This document shows positions 2,618 through 60,695 of a DNA stretch of 64,000 bases, in pieces (position 1 is the stretch's first letter; each line of letters opens with the position of its first letter). Below the pieces are notes generated by a model that saw nothing but the letters and a program-made list of their open reading frames with translations, had not been told where the DNA came from and ran no database searches. The DNA comes from a virus, in the IMG/VR virus record IMGVR_UViG_3300017527_000512, positions 62,001 to 126,000 of that record; one strand, written 5' to 3'. The translations under genes were made by a program, and so were the position numbers.

Positions 2618-4615
2618 ATGTCATATATCAAATCTGTAGAGAAACAGGTCATTAGAGCACGAGAAGCTTATTATAATACGGATAAGCCTATTATTTCAGA
2701 TAACAGCTACGATCAGTTAGAAGCTCTTCTTAGACGTATAGACCCAATGAATGCTCTTTTAAATGAGCAATCAGTAGGAACAGGGGGAAGTAAGCTTCGC
2801 CCTGAGAGAGGTTCTGTAATTCATTCTCAGAAGCTGTTGTCCGTAACTAAATTCTACTCCATTGAGGAGATCTTAGCGTGGATAAGTAGATTAGATATTC
2901 TTAAAAGAGAAGTATCCATATCATCTAAATTAGATGGTATGGCGGTAGTATTGAGTTATATAAAAGGAAATTTTAATCATGCCGTGACAAGAGGCGATGG
3001 TGTTGAGGGTCAGGATATAACAGATTCAGTTATTCATATGTCATCTATACCTAAGAAATTACCCGTACCTTACGACATAGAGATTCGAGGAGAAGCGGTT
3101 GTTTCATCTCAAGAATTCGTTAGATTGAATGGAATTCAAGAGGCTGCGGGAGAAAAACCATTTACACATCCTCGTAATGTAGCTGTTGGTGCAATTACGA
3201 CTAGAGACTGGGAGAAATCTACTCGAGTTAAGAATGTGGATTTTATAGCTTATGATGCTTTAGGTGACGGTACCAAAGGTACTTTTACAGATAATATAGA
3301 TCTTATTTCATCTTTAGGGTTTAATACTATTAAATGTTATACTGCAGATAAAGATTCTGAGATTACATCTATGATAGAGAAGGTAAGATCTTTTAACAAG
3401 GATTGGAACTATTCTACAGATGGTGTTGTTATCAGAATTAACGATAATGCAAGTTACTATAACTTAGGTAATAACGATAATAGTTACTACTGTCATTGTG
3501 CCTTAAAACCTGAGCAAGAGTTTGCAATTACGAGAATAGAGAAGATCGCTTTTGAAGTAAGCAGGAAGTCTGTTCTAACCCCGGTAGCATATTATACTCC
3601 TACATTTATTTCAGGGGCTATGTGCAGAGAGGCAAATATTGCGAGTATTCAAATGCTTCGCAAGATGGATCTTCATGTGGGAGATACAGTTTTAGTGGTT
3701 CGGAGAGGCCTAGTAATTCCTGTTATAGTCGCTAATTTATCCTCAAGAACGATCAATGATAATTTAGTCAAGGAAGGCGAGATAGATTTCAATGATTATC
3801 CTACATTCGAGAGATCTTCAGAGAAGGTGTATATTCCCTTATCGTGCCCTACTTGTGGATCACCTACTAGACTTATTAATGATGAAGTAAATCTTCTATG
3901 TACGAGAGAACCTGAATGTACGGGATCTACTGCAAGGCGTCTAGATTTCTTTTGTAAGGTTTTAGGAATAAAATATATGGGAGAGGAAATGGCTCGTAAG
4001 ATTCTAGCTGTTTATCCTGATCTTAAATTCTCTCATATTATTAAAATAGCTGAAATGTATCCTATAGAAGGTTTAACAGGGAATCTAGAACGAATCCAGA
4101 AACAGGCAGAAATAGCACACGCAGCATTAAAAGCTGATTGTTTAAGCAGACATCTTCTTTTTACGTCTATAGGCCCAGATAATATAGGGGAGAAAAGAGC
4201 ATTAAAATTATTCGAGGCTGTGTCAAAGCTTGATTCTAACTTAGAGAGCTTACAAGTATCAGATATCCTAGATCATGTAACAGGTACTGCAGAGAAGTCA
4301 GCGATTCAGATTAAGGAGTCTCTCGATGCTTCATTAGCGGAGTATTACGATTTATGCCTTGCATGGGATATTAGTCCTTATACTAAGATAGACGCTCCTG
4401 AAGAATCCAGAGGTACTTTTTGTGTAACAGGAACCTTATCTCAACCTCGTAAGGTTATTGTATCTATGCTTGAGGAAAAAGGATATTCCAACTCATCGGG
4501 CGTATCTAAGAATCTAGATTTCTTGGTATGTGGTGATAAAGCAGGAAGTAAGAGAGCTAAGGCAGAGAAGCTAGGAGTCCGTATCATTTCAGAGAAGGAT
4601 TTAGATTCTTTATAA
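2618..4615 (+). CDS. ligA: NAD-dependent DNA ligase LigA
   Basis: 665 residues, the usual full length. The domain order is complete: Ia domain (YYNTDKPIISDNSYDQL), adenylation domain with the nucleotidyl lysine in SSKLDGM (Lys ~104), IEIRGEAVV and THPRNVAVGA motifs, OB fold, four-Cys zinc finger (CPTC ... CTREPEC), helix-hairpin-helix region and C-terminal BRCT (GTFCVTGTL ... LVCGDKAGSK). It seals nicks using NAD+ at phage replication forks. It is headed by a terminator and promoter and has a good GGGG ribosome site. The phage also carries an ATP-dependent ligase at 15729. Confidence 0.97.
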   Translation: MSYIKSVEKQVIRAREAYYNTDKPIISDNSYDQLEALLRRIDPMNALLNEQSVGTGGSKLRPERGSVIHSQKLLSVTKFYSIEEILAWISRLDILKREVSISSKLDGMAVVLSYIKGNFNHAVTRGDGVEGQDITDSVIHMSSIPKKLPVPYDIEIRGEAVVSSQEFVRLNGIQEAAGEKPFTHPRNVAVGAITTRDWEKSTRVKNVDFIAYDALGDGTKGTFTDNIDLISSLGFNTIKCYTADKDSEITSMIEKVRSFNKDWNYSTDGVVIRINDNASYYNLGNNDNSYYCHCALKPEQEFAITRIEKIAFEVSRKSVLTPVAYYTPTFISGAMCREANIASIQMLRKMDLHVGDTVLVVRRGLVIPVIVANLSSRTINDNLVKEGEIDFNDYPTFERSSEKVYIPLSCPTCGSPTRLINDEVNLLCTREPECTGSTARRLDFFCKVLGIKYMGEEMARKILAVYPDLKFSHIIKIAEMYPIEGLTGNLERIQKQAEIAHAALKADCLSRHLLFTSIGPDNIGEKRALKLFEAVSKLDSNLESLQVSDILDHVTGTAEKSAIQIKESLDASLAEYYDLCLAWDISPYTKIDAPEESRGTFCVTGTLSQPRKVIVSMLEEKGYSNSSGVSKNLDFLVCGDKAGSKRAKAEKLGVRIISEKDLDSL

Positions 4616-9670: not shown

Positions 9671-11554
9671 ATGTTTAATCACTTTAACGAAGCTAGAATA
9701 GTATTATTTTACTCTAACTCTTCGAGAGTTTCTTCTAATTTACTTTTTCCTATGGCTCTTCCTAAGAATTCTTTTATCTTATCCGGCAATGGTTGTCTCT
9801 ATAAAGTCAGAGGCAATGCCATGGTATCAAAGAGAAATTGTTCTATTTTGTTTCTAGATTCCCTTAAAAAGGGTTTAGGTATTCATACTGACCTCTCTAG
9901 TATAAATTTCGTTGATTTTGACGGCTTCTTCAAAGCAGCTTTCATAGAAATAAAAACGTTTAAGAGATTGTTTAAGACCTCTATTGTAAAACAGAATAAA
10001 GCAGCCTTCTTTCATCCCTTAGATAATGATTTCTCCTCCCCTAAGCAGTTATTCAACAATTCTAAAGATTTTATGGAAGCACAGAAGTATCAAACCGAGA
10101 TATCTAAATTGTTGAGAGCCCACAAGTTCTTAAATTTTATTGTTAAGAATAAAAGCTTAGATGGGTATGCTTTTTCAGAGAAAGTTAAAGATATAACTTT
10201 TGGAGTAGAAGTAGAATTTCTTTTACATAATCTTAATTACGAGCAGTTCTTTTACAAGTTTAGGAATCTGTTCATATCAAACACTACTTATGAGGTTGAT
10301 GTCTACAAATCCTCACGTGATGAGCAATTGGTTTTATATAGAGTCTTTATTAATAGTATTGAAGACTCTGACAATAACATCTATTTTGACGTTTTCAAGG
10401 ATAACTCCATTAGTGGTTCAGGTTTATGTATAGAATTAGCTTTATCCCCAATCTCAAAAAATAGCTCTCAGAGATGTAAAGAGTTATATTCTAAGGTTTT
10501 CTTTATCCTAGAATTTTTAAAAGCAAAAGGATTCCTTACTACTAATTCTACGACAGGAACACATATTCATTTAGGTATGACTAGTTTAAAATCTAGAGAT
10601 ACTGTGGCTCCTTTATTAGCTCTATTTCCCCACATATATCTTCTTATAAAGAAGAGCTTTAAAGTTCTTTCAAGAAGAGAGAGATATTGTCAGGACATGT
10701 CTCTAGATATATTTAAAGCATTCTATTATCTTCCAGACATTACCGAAGGAGAATTTAAAGATCATTTCTATGAGGAGTATGAGTCCTCCGAATCTTCAAG
10801 ATCTCGTAGAAGTAGTAAGTTTCATTCTTCTAGATATTATGCCTTAAATTATCACTATACATTTTTAAAAGGTACTGCGGAATTCAGATTCTTTAATGGT
10901 TATGAATCTTTCTTAGATTTGTTACTGAAAGTAGAGTTCCTTCTTTATTTATGTGATTGGGCTGCTAATTTACGTGTATGCTCCTCTTATTGTTGGTCTA
11001 ATCTAGTAGAATCCTTTAATAAGATTAAAGAGCCTCGTATAGCGTCTAATTTCTTATATCACATTCTTGACTTAGATAAATTTAAGAAGATCTTTATTCG
11101 GAATGATGTTTCAGAAGGATTATTTAAAGACTACTTTGGGGAGAAATCTCTTAACATGAATTTCAAAGAGGAGATAGATATTTTTGATTTAAACGTTTTG
11201 GGAGAGTCTTTTATATTTATCCCTGGTCAAGGTAAATGTTTGTTATCTTTATTTAATCCTGAAGATTTAGATGAAGTTACTTTAAATACTATAAATTCGC
11301 TTTATGTAAGCGACGATGACTTCAGAGATTTTAAAAGTATGTATTTTCAATACACTAGCAGAAGATTTTATAAGGCTTATTTAAAATCTTTAAGATTTTT
11401 GATAAAGGATTATATAGGAACCGCCTCAGGTTCTAAGAAGGATTTTATCGAATATTCTACGATATTCGATAACCCTTTAAATAAGATTTCTGATGCTTTA
11501 CTAAAGGAAAAGGAGAATAGTAATAATGAGGATTACATAAACATTTTTAGCTAG
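9671..11554 (+). CDS. Amidoligase-fold (COOH-NH2 ligase) protein, long form
   Basis: 627 residues. ITFGVEVEF (~175), GTHIHLGM (~296) and TAEFRFFNGYES (~402) match the three signature blocks of the amidoligase_2 family (glutamine-synthetase-like COOH-NH2 ligases), which join amines to carboxylates with ATP. About 170 residues before the core and 200 after it are not recognisable. A second shorter family member is at 17122 and a class II glutamine amidotransferase is at 14256. Together they suggest an ammonia- or amine-dependent modification pathway on a peptide or metabolite. The substrate is unknown. Confidence 0.75.
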   Translation: MFNHFNEARIVLFYSNSSRVSSNLLFPMALPKNSFILSGNGCLYKVRGNAMVSKRNCSILFLDSLKKGLGIHTDLSSINFVDFDGFFKAAFIEIKTFKRLFKTSIVKQNKAAFFHPLDNDFSSPKQLFNNSKDFMEAQKYQTEISKLLRAHKFLNFIVKNKSLDGYAFSEKVKDITFGVEVEFLLHNLNYEQFFYKFRNLFISNTTYEVDVYKSSRDEQLVLYRVFINSIEDSDNNIYFDVFKDNSISGSGLCIELALSPISKNSSQRCKELYSKVFFILEFLKAKGFLTTNSTTGTHIHLGMTSLKSRDTVAPLLALFPHIYLLIKKSFKVLSRRERYCQDMSLDIFKAFYYLPDITEGEFKDHFYEEYESSESSRSRRSSKFHSSRYYALNYHYTFLKGTAEFRFFNGYESFLDLLLKVEFLLYLCDWAANLRVCSSYCWSNLVESFNKIKEPRIASNFLYHILDLDKFKKIFIRNDVSEGLFKDYFGEKSLNMNFKEEIDIFDLNVLGESFIFIPGQGKCLLSLFNPEDLDEVTLNTINSLYVSDDDFRDFKSMYFQYTSRRFYKAYLKSLRFLIKDYIGTASGSKKDFIEYSTIFDNPLNKISDALLKEKENSNNEDYINIFS

Positions 11555-11591
11555 TATGTATATAAAGTATATTCTTAGTTAATGAGGTGCT

Positions 11592-12125
11592 ATGTTATAC
11601 GAGTTAAATGTTATTCTTCCTTTGAGATTATCTTTCCTGGATTATCCAGAGAACAGTCATTCAGGTTCATTATACATAATGGGTTGTGACAACTTTTGTT
11701 TGGGTTGTCATAATCCAGAGTTTAGTGACCATGATTATTCCATCGGAACATCTAAATTGGATTTACATACTTTAGTATGTAAAATAGTATCAGGTTTAAG
11801 AGAATTAAATACTAAGAATTTAGTCCTCTTGGGAGGAGATCCTCTCTGTTTTCATAACATTCAAGAAGTAAAATCCCTTATTTTATTATTAAAAGATTAT
11901 GACATAGATATCTGTATATATACAGGAAAAGATATCTCTTTTGTTAAAGATAATGATGTCATTGGTTTTAAATATTTAAAATGTGGCGAATATGACAAGA
12001 ACTTGTCTCAAATGTCTAACAAAACGGATGATTTTTTTGCTTTATCTTCTAAGAACCAGAAACTCTATGATAAATATAGGAATCTTATATCTACAGAGGG
12101 CTATTATTATTACAACAGGATGTAA
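11592..12125 (+). CDS. nrdG: Anaerobic ribonucleotide reductase activase NrdG
   Basis: 177 residues. The radical-SAM cluster motif is CDNFCLGCHNPEF (Cys-x3-Cys-x2-Cys) preceded by SGSLYIMG, followed by LVLLGGDPL, the usual GGEP-type SAM-binding motif. NrdG uses a 4Fe-4S cluster and S-adenosylmethionine to make the glycyl radical on NrdD. The gene ends four bases before nrdD, as in many nrdD/nrdG loci. It supports growth of the phage in an anaerobic host. Confidence 0.88.
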   Translation: MLYELNVILPLRLSFLDYPENSHSGSLYIMGCDNFCLGCHNPEFSDHDYSIGTSKLDLHTLVCKIVSGLRELNTKNLVLLGGDPLCFHNIQEVKSLILLLKDYDIDICIYTGKDISFVKDNDVIGFKYLKCGEYDKNLSQMSNKTDDFFALSSKNQKLYDKYRNLISTEGYYYYNRM

Positions 12126-12129
12126 ATTT

Positions 12130-14199
12130 ATGTCATACTCAGCCAATTTTGAAGAGATAATCGAAGACGCTTCTATTATAGAAGAGGATCCAAGTCAATC
12201 AAGAACTACGAAGAATATTAAGAAATGTCTTAGAAGTATATTATCAAAGAAGTATTCATTTAAAACTCCTCAAGATCTATTAGGAGCTGTAAATGCTATT
12301 TTAAAGATTCATGGACTGCATGCTGATAATTTTGATTTTGTTAGAAATTTCCAAGAATCTATGAAAGCTACTTTGAGCGATATTAGTATTGATGATAATG
12401 CTAATAAAAACGAGAAGACTATTAGAGGTTTGGAACAAGAGATATTTGAATGTCTCAGAAAAGCCCTGGGATATGATATTCTTTATCAGACTATGAGAGA
12501 GATGTTTGGGAAGAAAGAAGCTCAGCGATTAGCAGGCAATATGTATGATTATTCGTTGGCTATTTCTGATAGCACTAAAATCCTTTATCCATATTGTTGG
12601 AGTTTTGACGCTTCAAAACTTGTTTTATTTGGAAGACCTTTTGGTCAGTTGAAATCAAAACCTCCTAAGAGAGTAGATTCCTATATTGCTTCATTAACAG
12701 AGACGGTTCATCAGCTTTCTAATCACTTAGCAGGCGCTATAGCAATAGGAACGTTTTTCTTAGATATAGCACACATAATGTATTACTTGGAAGGAATTGA
12801 ACTAACTCAATTGAAGAAAGATAGGCAGCTTAGAAAGAATATCGAAAATGAGTTTCAAACTTTTGTTCACTCTGTGAATCATCTCTCTCGTCAAGGAACA
12901 GAATCTCCTTTTACAAATTTATCTGTGTTTGATACTCCTAAACTTAGAGCCTTTATAGAAGAGATGGACTGGTACTTCGAAGGTGTTTGCAAAGAGACAG
13001 ATGATCAAGGAAATAAGATATGGGATGAGGAGCATATGTCCTACATTATATCATATATAAAAGAACTTCAGTATATTTATTTGGATTTCTTCGATAAAGG
13101 GGATCCTGAAAAGAATGGACTTCCTTATAGATTTCCAATTACAACTTTAAACATTTCTGTTTCAAAGAAGCAGGAAGAAGATAACATCACTTATGATGTG
13201 GACGACGGGAGATATTTAAATAAAATATGTAAGCTTGACATATTTAGATATAATATCTTTGCATCGGAGGGCAAGAAGATAGCGAGCTGTTGCAGATTAA
13301 TAAGTGATTCTGATATGATGGAACTAGCATCTCAGTCTAACTCTTTTGGAGCAGGATCTAGTGCTTCCTTAGGATCACATCGAGTAGTTACAATAAACTT
13401 AAACCGTCTTGCATTAGAAGCAAACTCTCTAGAAGATTACTATAGCAGGATGGATGCTCGGATAGAGGATGCAGCAAAAGTATTAAAGGCTCATAAGAAA
13501 GTAATAACTATCACTAATAACCACGGTCTTCAAATGTTTATGGAGATGGGATGGATCAATATGAATAGAATGTTTTCTACTTTTGGTATCATAGGTCTAG
13601 TAGAGTCTATTGAAACATTGAAGAGAAAATTTAAAATAAGAGACGCTCAGGAAGAGAAAATAGAGGTAGTGAAATATTTCAATCAGTGTGTTTTAAAAGT
13701 GTCTAACGTTTATGAGATTACAGGAAACATTGAACAAGTTCCAGCAGAAAGTATGGCAGCGAGACTCCCTGAGACAGATAAACTTTTATTTGGAGAGAAA
13801 GAAGTTCCTTACACTTTATATTCTAATCAATTCGTTCCTTTATGGGAAGAAGCGACTCTTTGGGACAGGCTGAGAGAAGATGGTAAATTCAACAGATTAA
13901 TAACAGGCGGGGGTATCGTTCATGCTCAAATTGGAGAAAAGACAACTGCTAAACAGTCTAAAGAAATAATTAAATTTGCTATCAAATGTGGATGTGAACA
14001 TTTTGCCTTAAACTCAGTTTATTCTGAATGTGTGGATGGTCATACTAACTTCGGTAATTTTGATATATGTCCTGAGTGTTCTAAAGTTATACTAACTCAG
14101 TATACAAGAGTAGTAGGATTCTTTACTCCAGTTAAGGATTGGAACAAGAAGAGACGTGAATGGGAGTTTCCTAAGAGAGCTTATGTAGAAGTTGAGTAG
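12130..14199 (+). CDS. nrdD: Anaerobic (class III) ribonucleoside-triphosphate reductase NrdD
   Basis: 689 residues starting MSYSANFEEI; a longer in-frame opening from 11983 lies inside nrdG and lacks support. SGLSVFDTP-like, ASCCRL and SLGSHRVVTINLNRLALEA match conserved NrdD blocks. The C-terminal zinc region (SECVDGH ... CPEC) precedes TRVVGFFTPV, where the glycine of RVxG is the expected glycyl-radical site. The zinc region seems to have one Cys replaced, possibly by His. The enzyme reduces ribonucleotides to deoxyribonucleotides without oxygen, feeding phage DNA synthesis. Confidence 0.9.
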   Translation: MSYSANFEEIIEDASIIEEDPSQSRTTKNIKKCLRSILSKKYSFKTPQDLLGAVNAILKIHGLHADNFDFVRNFQESMKATLSDISIDDNANKNEKTIRGLEQEIFECLRKALGYDILYQTMREMFGKKEAQRLAGNMYDYSLAISDSTKILYPYCWSFDASKLVLFGRPFGQLKSKPPKRVDSYIASLTETVHQLSNHLAGAIAIGTFFLDIAHIMYYLEGIELTQLKKDRQLRKNIENEFQTFVHSVNHLSRQGTESPFTNLSVFDTPKLRAFIEEMDWYFEGVCKETDDQGNKIWDEEHMSYIISYIKELQYIYLDFFDKGDPEKNGLPYRFPITTLNISVSKKQEEDNITYDVDDGRYLNKICKLDIFRYNIFASEGKKIASCCRLISDSDMMELASQSNSFGAGSSASLGSHRVVTINLNRLALEANSLEDYYSRMDARIEDAAKVLKAHKKVITITNNHGLQMFMEMGWINMNRMFSTFGIIGLVESIETLKRKFKIRDAQEEKIEVVKYFNQCVLKVSNVYEITGNIEQVPAESMAARLPETDKLLFGEKEVPYTLYSNQFVPLWEEATLWDRLREDGKFNRLITGGGIVHAQIGEKTTAKQSKEIIKFAIKCGCEHFALNSVYSECVDGHTNFGNFDICPECSKVILTQYTRVVGFFTPVKDWNKKRREWEFPKRAYVEVE

Positions 14200-14200
14200 T

Positions 14201-14208
14201 GTTATAAT
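14201..14208 (+). promoter_or_regulatory. GTTATAAT promoter-like motif
   Basis: GTTATAAT begins one base after the nrdD stop and 55 bases before the amidotransferase start. Confidence 0.55.
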
Positions 14209-14255
14209 TTTGCTATATTTAATATATATTTTATATTAGTTTAAAGGATGATTTT

Positions 14256-15725
14256 ATGTGTGGTATGGCAGGATTTCTACCTAGAGGCAGTGACTCGTCT
14301 TTTAAAGATTCTCGTAATTTTAAAGAATCTCTAAAAGAGATGTTAAAGTATCTTGAGATTCGAGGTACTCATGCCACCGGTCTTATATCTATATCAGATA
14401 ATGGATCTTTTTATACAGATAAATCTCCTGAGAAATCTTCTAATTATATTGACAATATTAATAATGATTTCGACTCAATAATAGAATCCTCTAAGGCTCT
14501 TATATATCATGTACGTCTAGCGACTGTAGGAGACCCGGAGGATAATATCAATAATCATCCATTTGCATCAGCAGATAATAGACTTCATTTAGTTCATAAT
14601 GGTACCTTAGCTCATACGTATAATGGATTTAAAGAACAGGATCGTCTCAAAGAGATGCAGGAATCTGAATGTGATTCTGAACTTCTTCTTAGATATATAG
14701 AACATCTTAGAAAGAAGAAGAATATTTCTGTTCAGAAAGCATTCGAATCAATGTTTTCTACCTTTATGGGAGCTATGGCCGTAATTTTATATGATTTTTA
14801 CGATAACAAGATTTTCTTTGTTAGAAACAAGAAACGTCCTTTATTCTTTATTTTTTATAAGAGCTTCATTTTGTATGCTTCTACTCAAGAGATCTTAGAA
14901 GTATTCGTTAATAGCTACTCTGAGTCCATGGAGAAAGACAATTTCTTCAGGGTAAACAAACATAAAGTTCTCACGTATGATCTAGAGAAGTTTTCCTTTA
15001 AGATGTCAAAACCCTTATTTCATAAATATGTCGTTGAAAATCCTTTCACAAGAAATATCTCAAGTTATTGCAATAATCAAACTACTCCTAACTTTATGAG
15101 CTATTCATTTAGTAACGACATAATTCCTGAGAAGGTCTCTTCTACTAAAGAGACACATGTTGTGGGAATGTCTTACTCGGTTGTAGAACGGTTGAAGTAT
15201 ATCAAAAGAACTAGAAAGACATTCTATAATTTTATAGAATCATCCTTGAGAGATGTACATTTTGTAGAATATTTAGAAGCCGCTTTACCTTGTAGTATCA
15301 GAGAGTTTATCCTCAACTACAATCTATTATTCATTTTAATAGCATATGATTTTATTTTTCATCAAAAATCTTTTGATTGGGATAAATCTAAGATAGAACA
15401 GGAATGCTCTCTTTATTATTTAATATTGAATATGTATTATGGTATGGATTTATCTTATGTAACATCTACAACGGATATCCCAGTATCAAAGCTTGGAGAT
15501 CTTAATAAGTTAATTTTGGCCGATGAGTCTTTCAAAGCGCATCTTATTAGTATAGGAGTTCCTATATTATATACTAATATGCTCTTAATTACTAAAGCTT
15601 ATGTAGATGAAATGGTAGGATTTAAATGGCCTTCGGGATTATATAAGAGATTGCTAAAATGCTGGGAAGGTATAGATTACCTCTCCCTAAAAGATAGTTA
15701 TAATAATTTAGAATTCAAAGGATAA
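14256..15725 (+). CDS. Class II glutamine amidotransferase (Ntn hydrolase) protein
   Basis: 489 residues. It begins MCGMAGF, with Cys2 as the expected N-terminal nucleophile after Met removal. RGTHATGL, YHVRLATVGD, NNHPFA and LVHNGTL are the standard glutaminase-domain blocks (residues 1-230). The C-terminal ~250 residues are not recognised and contain no synthetase or isomerase domain I know. It probably releases ammonia from glutamine. With two amidoligase-fold genes nearby (9671 and 17122), it may supply nitrogen to that pathway. It has a GTTATAAT promoter-like motif and AAAGGA ribosome site. Confidence 0.85.
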   Translation: MCGMAGFLPRGSDSSFKDSRNFKESLKEMLKYLEIRGTHATGLISISDNGSFYTDKSPEKSSNYIDNINNDFDSIIESSKALIYHVRLATVGDPEDNINNHPFASADNRLHLVHNGTLAHTYNGFKEQDRLKEMQESECDSELLLRYIEHLRKKKNISVQKAFESMFSTFMGAMAVILYDFYDNKIFFVRNKKRPLFFIFYKSFILYASTQEILEVFVNSYSESMEKDNFFRVNKHKVLTYDLEKFSFKMSKPLFHKYVVENPFTRNISSYCNNQTTPNFMSYSFSNDIIPEKVSSTKETHVVGMSYSVVERLKYIKRTRKTFYNFIESSLRDVHFVEYLEAALPCSIREFILNYNLLFILIAYDFIFHQKSFDWDKSKIEQECSLYYLILNMYYGMDLSYVTSTTDIPVSKLGDLNKLILADESFKAHLISIGVPILYTNMLLITKAYVDEMVGFKWPSGLYKRLLKCWEGIDYLSLKDSYNNLEFKG

Positions 15726-15728
15726 TAC

Positions 15729-17060
15729 ATGTCATTAATTAGAATGAATTTAACTCAGTTAAAGGCTGAGGCACATATGAGAAACCTGGAAGTATCTTCA
15801 TCATCCAAGGCAGGAGGGAAAAGAAGTGCTCCATGCATCAGGGATTACATAAAAGCTATTCAGGTAGATAATGGAAGAAATGAGCACCCGATTTACTCTA
15901 AACTTCCTGATTATACTTGTCCTATGTTAGCCAAACCTTCTTATGACCATAAAGAAGCAGAATTAAAAGAATTATTCGAGAATCCCGAGAATCCGTTTGA
16001 ATTTAAATTAAACGGAATCCGAGCAGCAATAGTTTTAAAAGACGGAATACTTCGAGTATTCTCTAGACATTTATCAGTAAAGAGTTACATGCCCGTAGAT
16101 TACACAAACAACCTTTTGGTATGTGAATATGAATTTCCTTCAGATATTTCTTTTGTTCTTGACTCAGAGTTGATGTCCAGGGAAAATTCTGTGAATACGG
16201 GTCAGGTAATCACACAATCAGTTTTAGAAACTACTAGATCTCTAATGAATATTGAGAGTGCAGTTCCTGTACAACTTCAGAAAGCGGATCTAGTTCATTT
16301 CGATTTTTATGTTTTTGACATAATGTACCTTAATGGAGAAGATACACGAGAGCATCCATACAAAGAGAGAATTGAGATTCTTCCTAAGATAATAGAAGTC
16401 CTACAAAAGAACATTCCAACGACAATAACGAGTTTCCTTCAACCGTTATACGCATTTGGTACTTACGAGGAGAAGATGGCTTTTTATAATAAGATTCTTG
16501 AGAAAGGCTTTGAGGGAATTATATGCAAAGATGCTAACTCGAAATACGTTTCAGATGAGTCTCGTCCAAAGTTAACTTGGGTTAAGAGGAAGAGAACTAT
16601 TACAGAATCTTTCAAATATTTTTATGGCGATGCTCCTGCATATGCAGGTGTTTCTGATTTAGACGCTTTTGTTATAGACGCTATGCCTGGGGACAAGGGA
16701 AAGAAACGGAGCAATTTAATTTCTACTTTAATCTTTGGGGTGTACCTAACAGATGACGATGGGAATCTTCTTAAGGATCCTTCAGGAGAGCCTGTAGTTC
16801 ATCGTATAGCAAGTGTCTCAGGATTCTCAGAAGAGATTAAAACTAATATTACTAACATTCATGAGGGATACCCTCGATTGAAGAAAGAATTTGAAGGGTC
16901 TGTTGCTTCTATAGATGGGGCATATATTTCATCAAGGTCTCGAACAATAACACATGCAGTGATCAGAGAATTTAAACCTGAGAAGAATTTCTTTGACTGT
17001 AAAATACCTCAGTCCTTAATTGAGAAGGCTTCCGAGTCAATTTCTGATGCAATGTTTTAA
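15729..17060 (+). CDS. ATP-dependent DNA ligase
   Basis: 443 residues. Motif I is FEFKLNGIRA (KxNGxR, nucleotidyl Lys ~95), then RVFSR, FDFYVFDIMYLNGED (motif III), EGIICKD (motif IV) and TWVKRKRT (motif V). The C-terminal half fits an OB domain. Residues 8-45 (LTQLKAEAHMRNLEVS and following) resemble a SAP/HeH-type DNA-binding helix pair. It seals DNA nicks with ATP. A phage encoding both this and an NAD-dependent ligase is uncommon. Three bases separate it from the amidotransferase stop. Confidence 0.88.
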   Translation: MSLIRMNLTQLKAEAHMRNLEVSSSSKAGGKRSAPCIRDYIKAIQVDNGRNEHPIYSKLPDYTCPMLAKPSYDHKEAELKELFENPENPFEFKLNGIRAAIVLKDGILRVFSRHLSVKSYMPVDYTNNLLVCEYEFPSDISFVLDSELMSRENSVNTGQVITQSVLETTRSLMNIESAVPVQLQKADLVHFDFYVFDIMYLNGEDTREHPYKERIEILPKIIEVLQKNIPTTITSFLQPLYAFGTYEEKMAFYNKILEKGFEGIICKDANSKYVSDESRPKLTWVKRKRTITESFKYFYGDAPAYAGVSDLDAFVIDAMPGDKGKKRSNLISTLIFGVYLTDDDGNLLKDPSGEPVVHRIASVSGFSEEIKTNITNIHEGYPRLKKEFEGSVASIDGAYISSRSRTITHAVIREFKPEKNFFDCKIPQSLIEKASESISDAMF

Positions 17061-17075
17061 TAAGTTGATCTTTAT

Positions 17076-17083
17076 GTTATAAA
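17076..17083 (+). promoter_or_regulatory. GTTATAAA promoter-like motif
   Basis: GTTATAAA, one base different from the family consensus, is 46 bases before the next start. Confidence 0.45.
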
Positions 17084-17121
17084 ATATAGACTAAAGTTAT
17101 ATTTTAGTATAGGATTTAATT

Positions 17122-18000
17122 ATGGAAATTGCATTTAACCTTAATAATAATGCTATGGAAGCTATATCATCTGTCAATTTTGGTATTGAGTTAGAAACAG
17201 TTTATAATGGGGAAGATCTTTTAGGATTTTCAAATCATATAAATTGGATAGTAGCGTCAGATCTTTCCATAAGATATGGCTCGATATACTCACATTCGGC
17301 AGAGATACAAACTCCAAAGCTGTCTCTTAACTTAGAAAACCTTAAAGATGTTTTCTCAGATATAAGAGAGATTAGGAGAAGAGGCGCCCGGGTTAATAAA
17401 ACATGTGGTATGCATGTTCATATTTCTTCTCCTTTATTTTATAAGGTAAATTTTATGTCCTCCTTTCTAAGTCTAATTAGAGAGAATCAAGAAGAGATGT
17501 TCAGAATATTTAAACCAACTTCAAGAAGATCCTTTAGATTCTGTAGAAGAGTACCTGATGTAGAGATTATCAATATGATCAGTTCTATTCAGGATGTGGC
17601 AGATGTCAATGGAAATATTGTGTATGAAGGGAATTTTTCTGGCCTGTCTAATAAATTTAATTTCATCAATTTTACGAATCTTGCAGGAACTAATAACCGT
17701 ACAAGAAATAGGAAGAATACTATAGAATTTCGTATATTTAATGGTTCGATGAATTGCGGTAAGGTATTAGCAAACCTCGAATTTATTTTCAATCTTATTT
17801 ACGTAGCCTCTAGAGAGGGATCATATCCGGACAGAAGTTGTGATTTAGTTTCTGATGATTTATTTTTAGATTATCCTTGGAGATACAATAAATATATAAA
17901 GTATCGTACTGTTGAGAATGTGTCTGATGTTGTAGATAATATGAATAGGGGAGAGGTAGAAGAGATGTCTCCAATCATCAGTCAGTCAGTTTCTTTTTAA
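17122..18000 (+). CDS. Amidoligase-fold protein, short form
   Basis: 292 residues. NFGIELETV (~19), CGMHVHIS (~94) and IEFRIFNGS (~201) are the amidoligase_2 signature blocks in the usual order. The length matches the bare family core, unlike the 627-residue relative at 9671. The enzyme class forms amide bonds between a carboxylate and an amine. Its substrate is unknown; the presence of two copies plus a glutamine amidotransferase points to one pathway. It lies directly upstream of the sigma-like gene with a 42-base gap. Confidence 0.78.
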   Translation: MEIAFNLNNNAMEAISSVNFGIELETVYNGEDLLGFSNHINWIVASDLSIRYGSIYSHSAEIQTPKLSLNLENLKDVFSDIREIRRRGARVNKTCGMHVHISSPLFYKVNFMSSFLSLIRENQEEMFRIFKPTSRRSFRFCRRVPDVEIINMISSIQDVADVNGNIVYEGNFSGLSNKFNFINFTNLAGTNNRTRNRKNTIEFRIFNGSMNCGKVLANLEFIFNLIYVASREGSYPDRSCDLVSDDLFLDYPWRYNKYIKYRTVENVSDVVDNMNRGEVEEMSPIISQSVSF

Positions 18001-36336: not shown

Positions 36337-37365
36337 ATGTCAGAACCTATCCTAAAATTAAAAGAGTTGTTGTGGGAAGTTACTAATAGATGTAATAAGG
36401 CATGCTCTTATTGCGGAAGCAGGGACATTTTAAATCAAGATGACGCTTCTTTCTTGATACCTAAGATTGTTGAGAATATTAAGAAGTTTCCTCCTGAGAC
36501 TCTTACCTTAACAGGAGGCGAACCGGGATGTCTTTTGGAGAAAGACATCAAATTTATTATAAACGAACTTCAGGGTGTCACAAAGATAAATGTTATCACT
36601 AATGGCGAGATTTTTAGTTCTTTTGAACATGGTATTCTATCATCTATTAATCAGATTGGTATATCTATAAACACTTTTGAAGATATGGAATCCTTTTCAT
36701 CTCTTAGTGATAAAGCATCAAAATATTATGATTCAGTCACAATGATAACTAATTTCGGCACTCATAACATATGGGATTTCCAAATGCTTTGTAAATTCTT
36801 CGATGATTTTTTATCTAGCCCTTTTTGGCAAGTTCAATTAACTATGGGAGAGTATCAATTGAAGGAGCCTGCTATCAGATATCTGAGAAACACTTTAATT
36901 GATGGTTCCTTTAAAAAAAGAAGATCAGCTGTTCGTGAGTCATTAGGAGGCAAAGGATCTATAGTTTTAGCAGATAACCTTCAATACAGCCATACGTGTT
37001 CAGCAGGAACAAAAGGATGTGCAATAACTTATGACGGGCTAATCATCCCATGTCTTTCTTCAAGAAGCTGGAGTTCCGAGGATTTAGATGTTCAAGAACA
37101 GATTAAAGCAGAATCTCCTTGTGATTTACTGCAACTAACATGGCAGACTAAATTTTTAAAGAATCGATTTAAAGAATTCAAATGTTGTAGGGATTGTATA
37201 GATTATCCTTGTGACAAGGAATCTGTAGACTCTCTATATGACGAGTTAAAGGGGTATGCAAAATCTGAAGTAAATTCATCTGAACAGCCTAATACAGATG
37301 TGTTTGATCATAATGAATTTGCGCCTCTGATTAGTGTATATTCTGTTTTCCAGGGAGAAGATTGA
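36337..37365 (+). CDS. Radical-SAM protein with SPASM-like C terminus
   Basis: 342 residues. The cluster motif is VTNRCNKACSYCGS (CxxxCxxC, residues ~14-21), followed by TLTGGEPGC. Late Cys groups (HTCSAGTKGCAI ... LIIPCLS and CCRDCIDYPCD) look like SPASM-type auxiliary cluster ligands, as in maturases of peptides or sulfatases. The likely role is radical modification of a protein or peptide; no obvious precursor peptide lies beside it. AAGGAG ribosome site behind a strong hairpin. Confidence 0.82.
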   Translation: MSEPILKLKELLWEVTNRCNKACSYCGSRDILNQDDASFLIPKIVENIKKFPPETLTLTGGEPGCLLEKDIKFIINELQGVTKINVITNGEIFSSFEHGILSSINQIGISINTFEDMESFSSLSDKASKYYDSVTMITNFGTHNIWDFQMLCKFFDDFLSSPFWQVQLTMGEYQLKEPAIRYLRNTLIDGSFKKRRSAVRESLGGKGSIVLADNLQYSHTCSAGTKGCAITYDGLIIPCLSSRSWSSEDLDVQEQIKAESPCDLLQLTWQTKFLKNRFKEFKCCRDCIDYPCDKESVDSLYDELKGYAKSEVNSSEQPNTDVFDHNEFAPLISVYSVFQGED

Positions 37366-56383: not shown

Positions 56384-56647
56384 ATGGGACTTGGATCTAA
56401 ATATATTATAGTCGATAATTCTTTTGCACTTTTATTAGATACTCAGTGCAATCATTGTGATGTTGTAAACCCTTCCAAAGTAACTGGGGCGGGATTTTGT
56501 AAGTTTCAGATAGGCATCGACTCTTCTTCAAAGAAGAGGAAATGTGATGTTACTGTCTTTGGTAGATCTTCTACTTTGAATATCGATTCTAAGGAATCGG
56601 ATATATTTTTTATAAAAACCTTATTGGTACAGGGAGATAATTCATGA
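56384..56647 (+). CDS. Unknown small protein with CxxC (87 aa)
   Basis: 87 residues from ATG 56384 (AGAGG upstream). LLDTQCNHCDVVN is a possible metal or redox site; the rest is strand-rich. It overlaps a tiny frame at 56644. Confidence 0.62.
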   Translation: MGLGSKYIIVDNSFALLLDTQCNHCDVVNPSKVTGAGFCKFQIGIDSSSKKRKCDVTVFGRSSTLNIDSKESDIFFIKTLLVQGDNS

Positions 56648-56730
56648 AGAAACATTTAAATATATATTGGTTCTTAGAATCCTTATCGGATTTTCACGTT
56701 GTATCAGGTTTATTATTAGTTGTTTACTAA
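56644..56730 (+). CDS. Tiny reading frame (28 aa)
   Basis: MKKHLNIYWFLESLSDFHVV and eight more residues. ATGA overlap with the previous gene. It may be the fused edge of a deletion that removed the first half of the next gene. Confidence 0.3.
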   Translation: MKKHLNIYWFLESLSDFHVVSGLLLVVY

Positions 56731-56733
56731 AAG

Positions 56734-57429
56734 ATTGAGTACAGAAAGATTATAACATCTTGGGGCAAAGACAATGAAACGGGTGCATATAAAAATATGA
56801 TAGACCAATTCGGAAATAAAGGCATATTCGCCTGTGTATCTGATAGCTATGATATTTATAATGCCGTAGAAAACCTATGGGGAGGTACTTTAAAGGAAAA
56901 GGTTGAAAATATGAATGCTATGTTAGTAGTCCGCCCTGATAGCGGCGATCCTATACAAGTTCCTATAGACTGTGTGATTGATTTAGAATCTAAGTTTGGC
57001 AGTACTTCTAATAAGAAAGGGTATAAAGTTCTTAATAATGTTAGAGTTATTCAAGGAGATGGCATCAATAAAGATGATATCGAAAATATCCTTAATAAAC
57101 TAACAAGGCTTGGGTTCTCCGCAGAGAACATGGCTTTCGGTATGGGAGGAGGTCTTCTACAAAAAGACTTCAACCGTGATACTAATAAGTTTGCGTTTAA
57201 ATGCTCTTGGGCAGAGATTGATGGCAGAGAAGTTGATATATTCAAAGACCCTGTTACCGACAAGGGCAAGATCTCTAAGAAAGGGAAATTATCTCTAGTA
57301 CCTGAAGGAGATTCTTTCAAAACGGTTAAAGGAAACGTTCCAGAAGATATTCTAGAGGTTGTTTACGATACAGGAGCTATCTTCAATGAGTCTACTCTTT
57401 CTCAGGTGAGAGAAAGAGCTGCAATTTAA
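56734..57429 (+). pseudogene. Nicotinamide phosphoribosyltransferase (NAMPT), C-terminal half only
   Basis: The reading frame from 56734 gives ITSWGKDNETGAYKNMIDQF, then GIFACVSDSYDIYNAVEN, LVVRPDSGDP, RVIQGDGIN and MAFGMGGGLLQ, all NAMPT signatures covering the phosphoribosyl-pyrophosphate-binding half. The usual enzyme is ~460-490 residues; here the first half is missing and the frame has a stop just upstream with no ATG before 56797. NAMPT makes NMN from nicotinamide in NAD salvage. This copy looks truncated and inactive. Confidence 0.82.
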
Positions 57430-57436
57430 TTTTAAC

Positions 57437-57463
57437 TCAGGGAAGGATAACTTTCTTCCCTGA
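57437..57463. terminator. Hairpin after NAMPT remnant
   Basis: TCAGGGAAG pairs with CTTCCCTGA around a nine-base loop, soon after the stop. No T-run. Confidence 0.45.
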
Positions 57464-57492
57464 TTGTATTAAAGTAATATTTAGGCATTAAA

Positions 57493-58506
57493 ATGTTAAT
57501 TAATATAATTTCGATTTATCTAAAATCTTTATTTAAATCTTCTATCACAAGGATACTAAAACCAACTTTGATATCTTTAGTATTATTAGCAGTATTGATA
57601 GGGATTAGCAGAGTTCTTCCTTTTATGGTTTCTTTATTAGAGGGCAAGGACTCCTGGTTTTGTATCAGGATAAACAATATGATACCTCTAGACAATATCC
57701 TTTCAGATCTTTTGAGAGGATCTTTAGTTTTAACCTCCTGGCTATTTAACGTTGTTTATGTATTTTTGGTATTTACCTTTACATCACTCCCTGCCTTCGC
57801 TTTTTATCATACTTTCTTCAAGAAGAGAGATAAAATCTTCATTTTTATTATATCTGAATTTATTATATGTTGGGCAATCTATTTCTTATTCGTAATAGGT
57901 GTTCTCGGTCTTGTAGTAGATAGATTAGCAGTAGCTTTATTATTCAATTTAATTTTCCGATTTTTATCCTATTCTCTATTTTTTGGTATTCCTCCTTTCT
58001 TTAAATCTGCTATGAAGTGGTTTCGAATTAAGAGAAGAAATAAGCCCATAGAAGGCGAATCTTTCTTAGAACAGGAGAAGACTTTTATTGATCCTATGAT
58101 GTCCATAAATGAGCAAAAGAAGTTCTATACTTATGACGATGAGTTCATGCGTATGGGAGCCGTGCCTGATGAAAACCAAAAGATCTCAGAAGCATTATTC
58201 TGGACTAAAGCAGGAAGACAGTTCTTAACTTCTTTTTACAGAGGAAAGAGTAAGTGTCATGTAGAATCATTAAATTGGCGATTGATAGATGACATTGTAA
58301 ATTACTTATTCTTCTTTGGAGTAAGATACGTGGTAGATACTCTAAGCCCTGATTTAAAGAAGAGACCTACAAATGATATTGCTAAATGGCAAAGCTCTGA
58401 TTGTATGGATGTTTTATACATGGAAGATCTATTAGAGAATACAGAGGCTTATTTATTAGATAAGAAGCTTCCGTATACTACTCTAGGTTTTGGAAGATCT
58501 TCTTAG
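57493..58506 (+). CDS. Multi-pass membrane protein with soluble C-terminal domain
   Basis: 337 residues. Four or five hydrophobic helices occupy 1-175 (LISLVLLAVLIGISRVLPFM, VVYVFLVFTFTSLPAFAFYH, FIFIISEFIICWAIYFLFVI ...). The remaining ~160 residues are soluble and charged. No transporter or enzyme motif is recognised. Confidence 0.72.
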   Translation: MLINIISIYLKSLFKSSITRILKPTLISLVLLAVLIGISRVLPFMVSLLEGKDSWFCIRINNMIPLDNILSDLLRGSLVLTSWLFNVVYVFLVFTFTSLPAFAFYHTFFKKRDKIFIFIISEFIICWAIYFLFVIGVLGLVVDRLAVALLFNLIFRFLSYSLFFGIPPFFKSAMKWFRIKRRNKPIEGESFLEQEKTFIDPMMSINEQKKFYTYDDEFMRMGAVPDENQKISEALFWTKAGRQFLTSFYRGKSKCHVESLNWRLIDDIVNYLFFFGVRYVVDTLSPDLKKRPTNDIAKWQSSDCMDVLYMEDLLENTEAYLLDKKLPYTTLGFGRSS

Positions 58507-58558
58507 AAGAGTCTAATGCTGATAAGTTATGAAAGGTACTTACATATAGGAAATATTT

Positions 58559-58708
58559 ATGGCAGAAGAAGACGTAGTAATCAACAGAGAACAGTTAGAT
58601 GAGATTCAGACGGAAGCAAGGAAATATAGAGCATTAGAAGTTCTTGGTGTAGACAATTGGATAGGTTACGATGATGCTATGGAATTAGCAAAAGTGGAGG
58701 ATATTTAA
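58559..58708 (+). CDS. Small acidic protein (49 aa)
   Basis: MAEEDVVINREQLDEIQTEA and on: a helical acidic peptide with AGGAA upstream and the next gene one base after its stop. Function unknown. Confidence 0.6.
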   Translation: MAEEDVVINREQLDEIQTEARKYRALEVLGVDNWIGYDDAMELAKVEDI

Positions 58709-58709
58709 C

Positions 58710-58949
58710 ATGTCAAGAGAGTCTGAAGTAATAACAACAACGAAGAAGCTCGATGCTTTTATAAACACTTTACTCGATCAGTATAATGGGATGTGGATAT
58801 CCTTCTTAAATAAGGATAAATACAGCATTCATAGTAATTATCAGGATGCCTATTCATACAGTATGAGCAGATTTCCTGACGAAGGGTTTGTAGTAAGAGA
58901 GGTAACTTTGGAGTCTCCAAAGCTTAGCTCAGCTATAAGGGAGTTGTGA
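58710..58949 (+). CDS. Unknown protein (79 aa)
   Basis: 79 residues, helical start then WISFLNKDKYSIHSNYQDAY. GTGGAGG ribosome site. One-base overlap (TGATG) with the next gene. Function unknown. Confidence 0.62.
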   Translation: MSRESEVITTTKKLDAFINTLLDQYNGMWISFLNKDKYSIHSNYQDAYSYSMSRFPDEGFVVREVTLESPKLSSAIREL

Positions 58950-59218
58950 TGAAGTTACTTTTAATATTGGTTCTACTTACGGGAATATCTTTATATCCTT
59001 CAAGATTAAGGTATAAGTCCTTTACTGATATGCAGCAGGCCCTTAACTTCATAGCAGATCACTACAAACTAGCTAATCAGCATTTAGGAGGAAACTCTTG
59101 GTGGTCTACTCATAGATTAGTGGTAGTCCCTAAGATGATTAAAACACATAGTATGAAGTTGGATCTTATAGATTTTAATATAGAAAATACTTATGTAGTA
59201 TACTGGAAGGAATTATAA
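58949..59218 (+). CDS. Small secreted protein (89 aa)
   Basis: 89 residues from ATG 58949. MKLLLILVLLTGISLYPSRL is a signal peptide. The mature part includes NFIADHYKLANQHLGGNSWW. The stop overlaps the next ATG by one base. Function unknown. Confidence 0.65.
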   Translation: MKLLLILVLLTGISLYPSRLRYKSFTDMQQALNFIADHYKLANQHLGGNSWWSTHRLVVVPKMIKTHSMKLDLIDFNIENTYVVYWKEL

Positions 59219-60311: not shown

Positions 60312-60695
60312 ATGACGAAGTTAGATAAGATAAAATACTTTAAATCCAGGGTGTCATATTATTTCTATGATTTTTTCAAATTATCTGATTATGAGCTTAC
60401 TATTACGGGTCAAGATAAATTTGATACGAGGGGCTCAGCATATTGGCATTCTTACGAAGAAGCATCCGCGATGTGTACTATCTGTTATTCTAATGGGTGG
60501 ATCAGTTCCGGGGAAGTTACTAAGTATGAAATAGATAAGATTGCTTTTCATGAGGTATGTGAATGTCTTTTACAAGAAATAAATAAGATTTCAAGAGAAA
60601 GATTTATTTCAGAAGTGGTTATAGAGCACTCTATTCACCAAATAATTCGTAGAATAGAAAATTCTGTGTACCCTCTTATTAAGGATAAAGTATGA
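60312..60695 (+). CDS. Putative zinc metallopeptidase-like protein
   Basis: 127 residues. KIAFHEVCECLLQEI contains HExxE and is followed by EVVIEHSIHQIIRRIE, a later Glu/His block, similar to small phage proteins annotated as metallopeptidases. The N-terminal part carries Trp/Tyr strands. Four-base overlap with the next gene. Confidence 0.6.
   Translation: MTKLDKIKYFKSRVSYYFYDFFKLSDYELTITGQDKFDTRGSAYWHSYEEASAMCTICYSNGWISSGEVTKYEIDKIAFHEVCECLLQEINKISRERFISEVVIEHSIHQIIRRIENSVYPLIKDKV

Follow-up and report, generated by a model that had tools for sequence, protein, structure and literature searches.

We analyzed a 64,000-nucleotide stretch of virus DNA (hereafter the window; bases 62001-126000 of the 164,540-base IMG/VR record IMGVR_UViG_3300017527_000512), which encodes two Amidoligase_2 proteins, AL-A and AL-B, and a class II (N-terminal nucleophile, Ntn) glutaminase located between them. 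Outside the window, the same record also encodes AL-C, which is a further Amidoligase_2 protein, and a gamma-glutamyl cyclotransferase (GGCT; Table 1). An initial annotation had recognized the open reading frames of the two amidoligases, by their amidoligase_2 signatures, and of the intervening glutaminase, and Pfam matches and motifs confirm these assignments. Against the Pfam family Amidoligase_2 (PF12224, cut-off 22 bits), AL-A, AL-B and AL-C score 59.6, 63.8 and 81.1 bits, respectively; both the Amidoligase_2 and the GATase_6 matches lie far above the Pfam cut-offs and are therefore not due to chance. The genes from AL-A to AL-B are co-directional and separated by gaps of 3-62 nucleotides (nt).

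Table 1. Amide-forming gene set and neighboring genes; positions refer to the window unless the record is named (aa, amino acids; RNR, ribonucleotide reductase; SAM, S-adenosylmethionine)
Feature	Position	Strand	Evidence
AL-A, Amidoligase_2 protein, 627 aa	9671..11554	+	Pfam Amidoligase_2 E 5.5e-16, residues 174-411; FGVEVE, GTHIHL, EFRFFN
Class II (Ntn) glutaminase, 489 aa	14256..15725	+	GATase_6 E 1.1e-15, residues 71-209
AL-B, Amidoligase_2 protein, 292 aa	17122..18000	+	Pfam E 2.9e-17; FGIELE, GMHVHI, EFRIFNG
AL-C, third Amidoligase_2 protein, 359 aa	record 131549-132628, 5.5 kb past window end		Pfam 81.1 bits; FGVEFE, GLHIHI, EFRQAA
GGCT	record 60334-60690, 1.3 kb before window start		E 6e-20
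NrdG-like radical SAM activase, neighbor outside the amide set	11592..12125	+	Fer4_12 E 5.1e-10; phrog_626 anaerobic RNR small subunit E 1e-15
NrdD anaerobic RNR, neighbor	12130..14199	+	NRDD E 4.3e-74
ATP-dependent DNA ligase, neighbor	15729..17060	+	DNA_ligase_A_M E 3.2e-24; begins 3 nt past glutaminase

AL-A, AL-B and AL-C all keep the ExE, HxH and EFR motifs. Across 49 aligned phage amidoligases, of which AL-A is the first, AL-A residues Gly-178, Glu-180, Glu-182, His-298, His-300, Arg-338, Glu-404 and Arg-406 are invariant. The glutaminase likewise retains its catalytic residues Cys-2, Arg-87, Thr-90, Asn-115, Gly-116 and Asp-140, and the active-site residues on which the initial annotation had let its proposal depend are thus in place in the alignments of both families. 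The GGCT carries YGSL and DxxEGYP motifs, is of the YtfP-like type found in phage cassettes (see below), and adjoins a gene for a MinD/ParA-like ATPase.

Fold modeling covered AL-A among the three amidoligases and the glutaminase. The AL-A model, built with the 49-sequence alignment, has a mean predicted local distance difference test score (pLDDT) of 61 and a predicted template modeling score of 0.59, with a moderately confident core. Foldseek matches for this model were weak, with the top ones mostly from one superfamily; when the core was realigned, VIA Z scores reached about 11 for glutamine synthetases (GS), 10.6 for gamma-glutamylmethylamide synthetase (GmaS) and 10.2 for YbdK, over 240-260 residues at 4-5 Angstrom. 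AL-A is thus predicted to adopt a glutamine-synthetase-like fold, with the GS/YbdK-type core spanning approximately residues 150-480. The large extra domains previously noted for one amidoligase are found here as AL-A extensions at residues 1-170 and 480-627, for which there were no relatives among the compared loci and no confident model. A search of PDB chains gave no sequence match to AL-A or AL-B above chance, and single-sequence scans of viral contigs with AL-A, AL-B, AL-C and the glutaminase returned no close relatives. Residues 1-254 of the glutaminase are confidently modeled as a GlmS/PurF-type domain (Foldseek match to the GlmS glutaminase 1xff, E 5.6e-14). Residues 255-489, the C-terminal region that had been described as unassigned, are still without assignment, with pLDDT under 50 and no relatives among the compared loci. 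Among 72 phage-type glutaminases with a length of 380 amino acids or more, 63 have at least two CxxC pairs after residue 220; the present protein is without such pairs. The initial annotation had suggested structure prediction, and the folds predicted for AL-A and for the glutaminase domain fit amide-forming roles.

Neighborhoods of phage amidoligases and glutaminases

We compared this gene set to other loci by scanning with a glutaminase alignment, which yielded 74 viral loci and none in genome_contigs. Our own profiles, applied to up to 10 kb on each side, detected Amidoligase_2 in 65 of the 74 loci, an ATP-grasp enzyme in 69, a COOH-NH2 ligase in 55 and GGCT in 35; these are minimum counts, since truncation affects many of the loci and overlapping frames had been filtered out. 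There is no overlap between the amidoligase and COOH-NH2 ligase match sets. A protein of about 200 residues without a Pfam match (the "middle" protein) recurs in 39/69 non-redundant loci by BLAST and in 58/74 loci by profile, and a gamma-glutamyl hydrolase-like Peptidase_C26 is found in 30/69 non-redundant loci. These cassettes adjoin primase/helicase (61/69 loci) and DNA polymerase (58/69 loci) clusters. The same gene set is present in phages UFV-P2, tf, PSA-HP1, phiEco32 and LUZ24 (PMC3890496, PMC3517423, PMC5498523) and in OM43 phages (PMC10580990), and has been labeled a "peptidoglycan modification cassette" (PMC5498523). An amidoligase-glutaminase gene set is thus already known from many phages, and in the record analyzed here it takes a divergent form that lacks some parts and is spread out. 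The co-occurrence check proposed in the initial annotation therefore shows that glutaminase and amidoligase do occur together elsewhere, and these counts, the active-site residues and the folds together support its notion of an amide-forming gene set.

A maximum-likelihood tree of 46 amidoligases places our proteins differently. An earlier tree had very long branches, and the smaller set gave a clear split: AL-A, AL-B and AL-C group with gut-phage and mobile-element amidoligases and are separated by a branch with 100/99 support from 19 of 20 cassette amidoligases. The one outlier is L086, a cassette locus whose amidoligase, from the AL-A/B/C side, is encoded directly between two glutaminases. 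The exact places of AL-A, AL-B and AL-C are unsure because terminal branches are long, and the trees indicate that the three are not recent duplicates. Along their branch, GGCT is encoded within 1.5 kb downstream of the amidoligase in at least 54 of 80 loci, and a glutaminase is nearby in none of the 80. Whole records of the GGCT-paired branch contain GGCT in 9/9 cases, including a Blautia phage, and glutaminase in 0/9. The nearest relative of AL-C in the tree is an amidoligase from a Porphyromonas phage, which encodes neither GGCT nor glutaminase, and some amidoligases therefore act alone. In Pfam score, AL-A, AL-B and AL-C (60-81 bits) exceed cassette amidoligases (21-54 bits) and stay below the GGCT-paired type (180-263 bits), and no other of 50 related records has three Amidoligase_2 matches over the cut-off. 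In one phage-labeled record (L093:1176-3747), an amidoligase-GGCT pair is flanked by a VirB4-like ATPase fragment on one side and an NlpC/P60-like protein on the other, and the record resembles a conjugative element.

The Pfam entry PF12224 notes two neighborhoods for this family: the partner is a glutamine-amidotransferase-like protein in the first and an AIG2 cyclotransferase in the second. Our analysis reproduces both from raw sequence and finds that they correspond to the two sides of the tree. The amidoligases of this genome come from the GGCT-paired arrangement, and its glutaminase and GGCT type come from the cassette arrangement. A physical or functional complex of two amidoligases with the glutaminase is plausible, but the case for it is weaker than initially proposed, because these amidoligases are not the usual companions of such a glutaminase.

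Candidate chemistry and target

We tentatively interpret the set as a divergent, dispersed phage amidoligase toolkit that would form gamma-glutamyl-type amide bonds. Its likeliest target would be a precursor of the host envelope or a stem peptide of the peptidoglycan, and we place the probability of this composite reading a little short of even. Among the points in its favor are the GGCT that this genome has in common with the AL-A/B/C branch, the glutaminase beside an amidoligase in the viral record with the most similar NrdD, and locus L086 with its amidoligase between two glutaminases. It is very probable that the amidoligases are ATP-dependent amide-forming ligases. In the proposed reaction, ATP would activate a carboxylate, most likely a glutamyl gamma-carboxylate, which would then be joined to an amine or to ammonia. 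GS, GmaS and YbdK all act on the gamma-carboxylate of glutamate. GGCT (35/74 loci) and Peptidase_C26 (30/69) moreover represent two recurrent gamma-glutamyl-cleaving families, and for these two reasons gamma-glutamyl chemistry is favored and, in our view, probable. The glutaminase would split glutamine and release ammonia, and we lean slightly toward it feeding at least one of the amidoligases in this record. GGCT, judged by its family and motifs, may cut or recycle gamma-glutamyl amides as 5-oxoproline. Alteration of an envelope precursor or stem peptide during infection could then change the wall or block rival phages; taken by itself, an envelope target is possible but rather doubtful.

A wall or envelope modification was reportedly proposed for the phiEco32 cassette by Iyer et al. 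in 2009. Two later reports cite, for phiEco32, the guess that a wall change blocks superinfection (PMC10580990, PMC11318856). Supporting hints for a wall target come from the directed evolution of the LUZ24-like phage FJK, where both evolved phages acquired missense changes in the amidoligase and the glutaminase (PMC11450229), and from a LytR-CpsA-Psr protein in our record. The latter (PF03816, E 1.1e-9; record 146644-147630) is unusual for a phage and may bear on the host envelope.

Several findings weigh against this interpretation. The tree separates our amidoligases from nearly all cassette amidoligases, their own branch has no glutaminase nearby, and the Porphyromonas phage with the amidoligase nearest to AL-C has neither partner. 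No RimK-type ATP-grasp enzyme (PF08443) was found in the possibly incomplete record, by a search that detected 13 of 14 positive controls and by our own ATP-grasp profile, which detects 69/74 cassette loci. A COOH-NH2 ligase (PF14395) was also not found in the record; here the Pfam search had no responding control, and our own profile, which detects 55/74 loci, gave no match. The genes are far apart: GGCT is 11 kb from AL-A and approximately 15.6 kb from the glutaminase, and AL-B is 51 kb from AL-C. The sequence holds nothing that identifies the substrate, and we found no published experiment testing the envelope hypothesis. Peptidase_C26 and the middle protein were likewise not found in the record. 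We thus rejected the idea that the set is a plain canonical cassette, because searches did not recover the ATP-grasp enzyme, the COOH-NH2 ligase or Peptidase_C26 and because the amidoligases branch apart in the tree.

The chemistry may instead concern a small molecule: in the infected cell, the set could make or consume an amine or peptide with a gamma-glutamyl group, to recycle nitrogen, to detoxify or to counter host defenses. This is unlikely in itself, yet nearly as likely as a wall target. GGCT and Peptidase_C26 act by family on small gamma-glutamyl compounds, the best fold matches of AL-A include the small-molecule ligases GmaS and YbdK, and the set is without any obvious envelope enzyme. 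On the other hand, we saw no dedicated transporter or downstream pathway, and the published proposal is that of an envelope target, which would account for the presence of the cassette in phages of very different hosts. Modification of a host or phage protein by ligation or amidation, in the manner of PafA, which shares the fold, and with the glutaminase acting separately, appears quite improbable. PafA and McsB are among the weak Foldseek matches of AL-A, and its long extra domains could bind a macromolecule, but glutamine synthetase and YbdK match better than either protein, we noticed no partner gene resembling a tag, and the GGCT linkage indicates gamma-glutamyl chemistry instead.

The initial annotation had considered a nucleotide target conceivable from the neighboring DNA-precursor and ligase genes. 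The set indeed lies among closely spaced, co-directional genes between DNA polymerase, NrdDG and DNA ligase, and canonical cassettes likewise adjoin primase and polymerase. This placement recurs in unrelated phages, however, and is therefore general, and early expression explains it equally well. The DNA of the cassette-bearing phage tf is moreover cleaved by the five common enzymes RsaI, HpaI, EcoRV, SmaI and HaeIII (PMC3517423). The argument from neighboring genes thus loses its force, and modification of DNA or nucleotides is very improbable. Only slightly better is the prospect that three non-redundant amidoligases, sharing one glutaminase without the usual metal-binding tail, form a new pathway to a phage-specific compound or modification, possibly of a nucleotide or protein, rather than acting on the wall; we regard this as improbable. 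It is also unlikely, but compatible with any of these targets, that glutaminase and amidoligases are independent accessory genes that came to lie near each other by chance and do not act jointly. The lack of glutaminases along the amidoligase branch, the unrelated genes that interrupt the set and the absence of recent duplication would all fit such independence. It is opposed by the frequent pairing of glutaminase and amidoligase in other loci, by the presence in this genome of GGCT, the partner of the AL-A/B/C branch, and by L086, where an amidoligase from the same side of the tree is paired with glutaminases.

The envelope-directed amidoligase toolkit is thus our preferred reading. The cassette has been on record since 2009, with examples from phages that infect Pseudomonas, Escherichia, Vibrio and other hosts, and we found no published test of its function. 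Our record suggests that glutaminase, amidoligase and GGCT can be retained without the ATP-grasp and COOH-NH2 ligases, which defines a smallest set to test. As the recurrence of GGCT in both arrangements and of Peptidase_C26 in the cassettes indicates gamma-glutamyl chemistry, the role of the amidoligases becomes directly testable.

Other genes in the record

The radical SAM protein preceding NrdD scores much higher with the NrdG family than with the QueE-like phrog_2076, and a QueE-like identity was therefore discarded. The NrdD most similar to ours (52% identical) is encoded in viral record G001/L017, which also contains a glutaminase adjoining a cassette-type amidoligase. We rejected this record as a relative: it belongs to another phage lineage with unrelated flanks, and its NrdD (L017:7365-10736) is broken by an apparent in-frame intein of about 430 residues. 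Two DNA ligases are encoded in this one phage, an NAD-dependent enzyme (window 2618-4615) in addition to the ATP-dependent one. The window further contains a second radical SAM protein of 342 residues (36337-37365; PF04055, E 4e-9) and a Ro60/TROVE protein (26118-27710; TROVE E 8.8e-38, vWA_Ro60 E 1.6e-59), which may be linked to RNA repair. Upstream of the window, a protein at record 56562-59150 has PAS-like, GGDEF and EAL-like segments recognizable by eye (RIGGDEFALF; FEALFRF), which suggests phage-borne cyclic-di-GMP signaling.

Comparison with known systems

A pairing of ligase and glutaminase is also seen in MurT-GatD, where glutamate in peptidoglycan is amidated. This is a functional analogy only, as the folds are unrelated (GatD is a class I glutaminase and MurT a Mur ligase) and no Mur ligase was noticed in this record. 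With the GS, GmaS and YbdK ligases, AL-A shares the predicted core fold and the ExE, HxH, ExR pattern, but it is only 8-14% identical to them and has extra terminal domains. The cassettes of phiEco32, LUZ24, tf, CW02, RIO-1 and PSA-HP1 share with our record a class II glutaminase of the same family, Amidoligase_2, GGCT and replication-gene neighbors. They differ from it in having the ATP-grasp enzyme, COOH-NH2 ligase, middle protein, Peptidase_C26 and CxxC tail, whereas here three amidoligases of another branch are present, GGCT is not contiguous, and the genes are dispersed over about 72 kb and broken up by unrelated genes. The amidoligase-AIG2 (GGCT) pairs of IMG/VR loci L097-L176, of Blautia phage NatCom_2932 and of Clostridium clostridioforme prophages (PMC11318856) lie on the same side of the tree as AL-A, AL-B and AL-C, and GGCT is present in our genome as well; here, however, it is non-adjacent and YtfP-like, and a class II glutaminase is present. 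The gene set is thus a hybrid that draws on two amidoligase arrangements already known but is short of some cassette components; it would work in a similar way to both and is a full member of neither.

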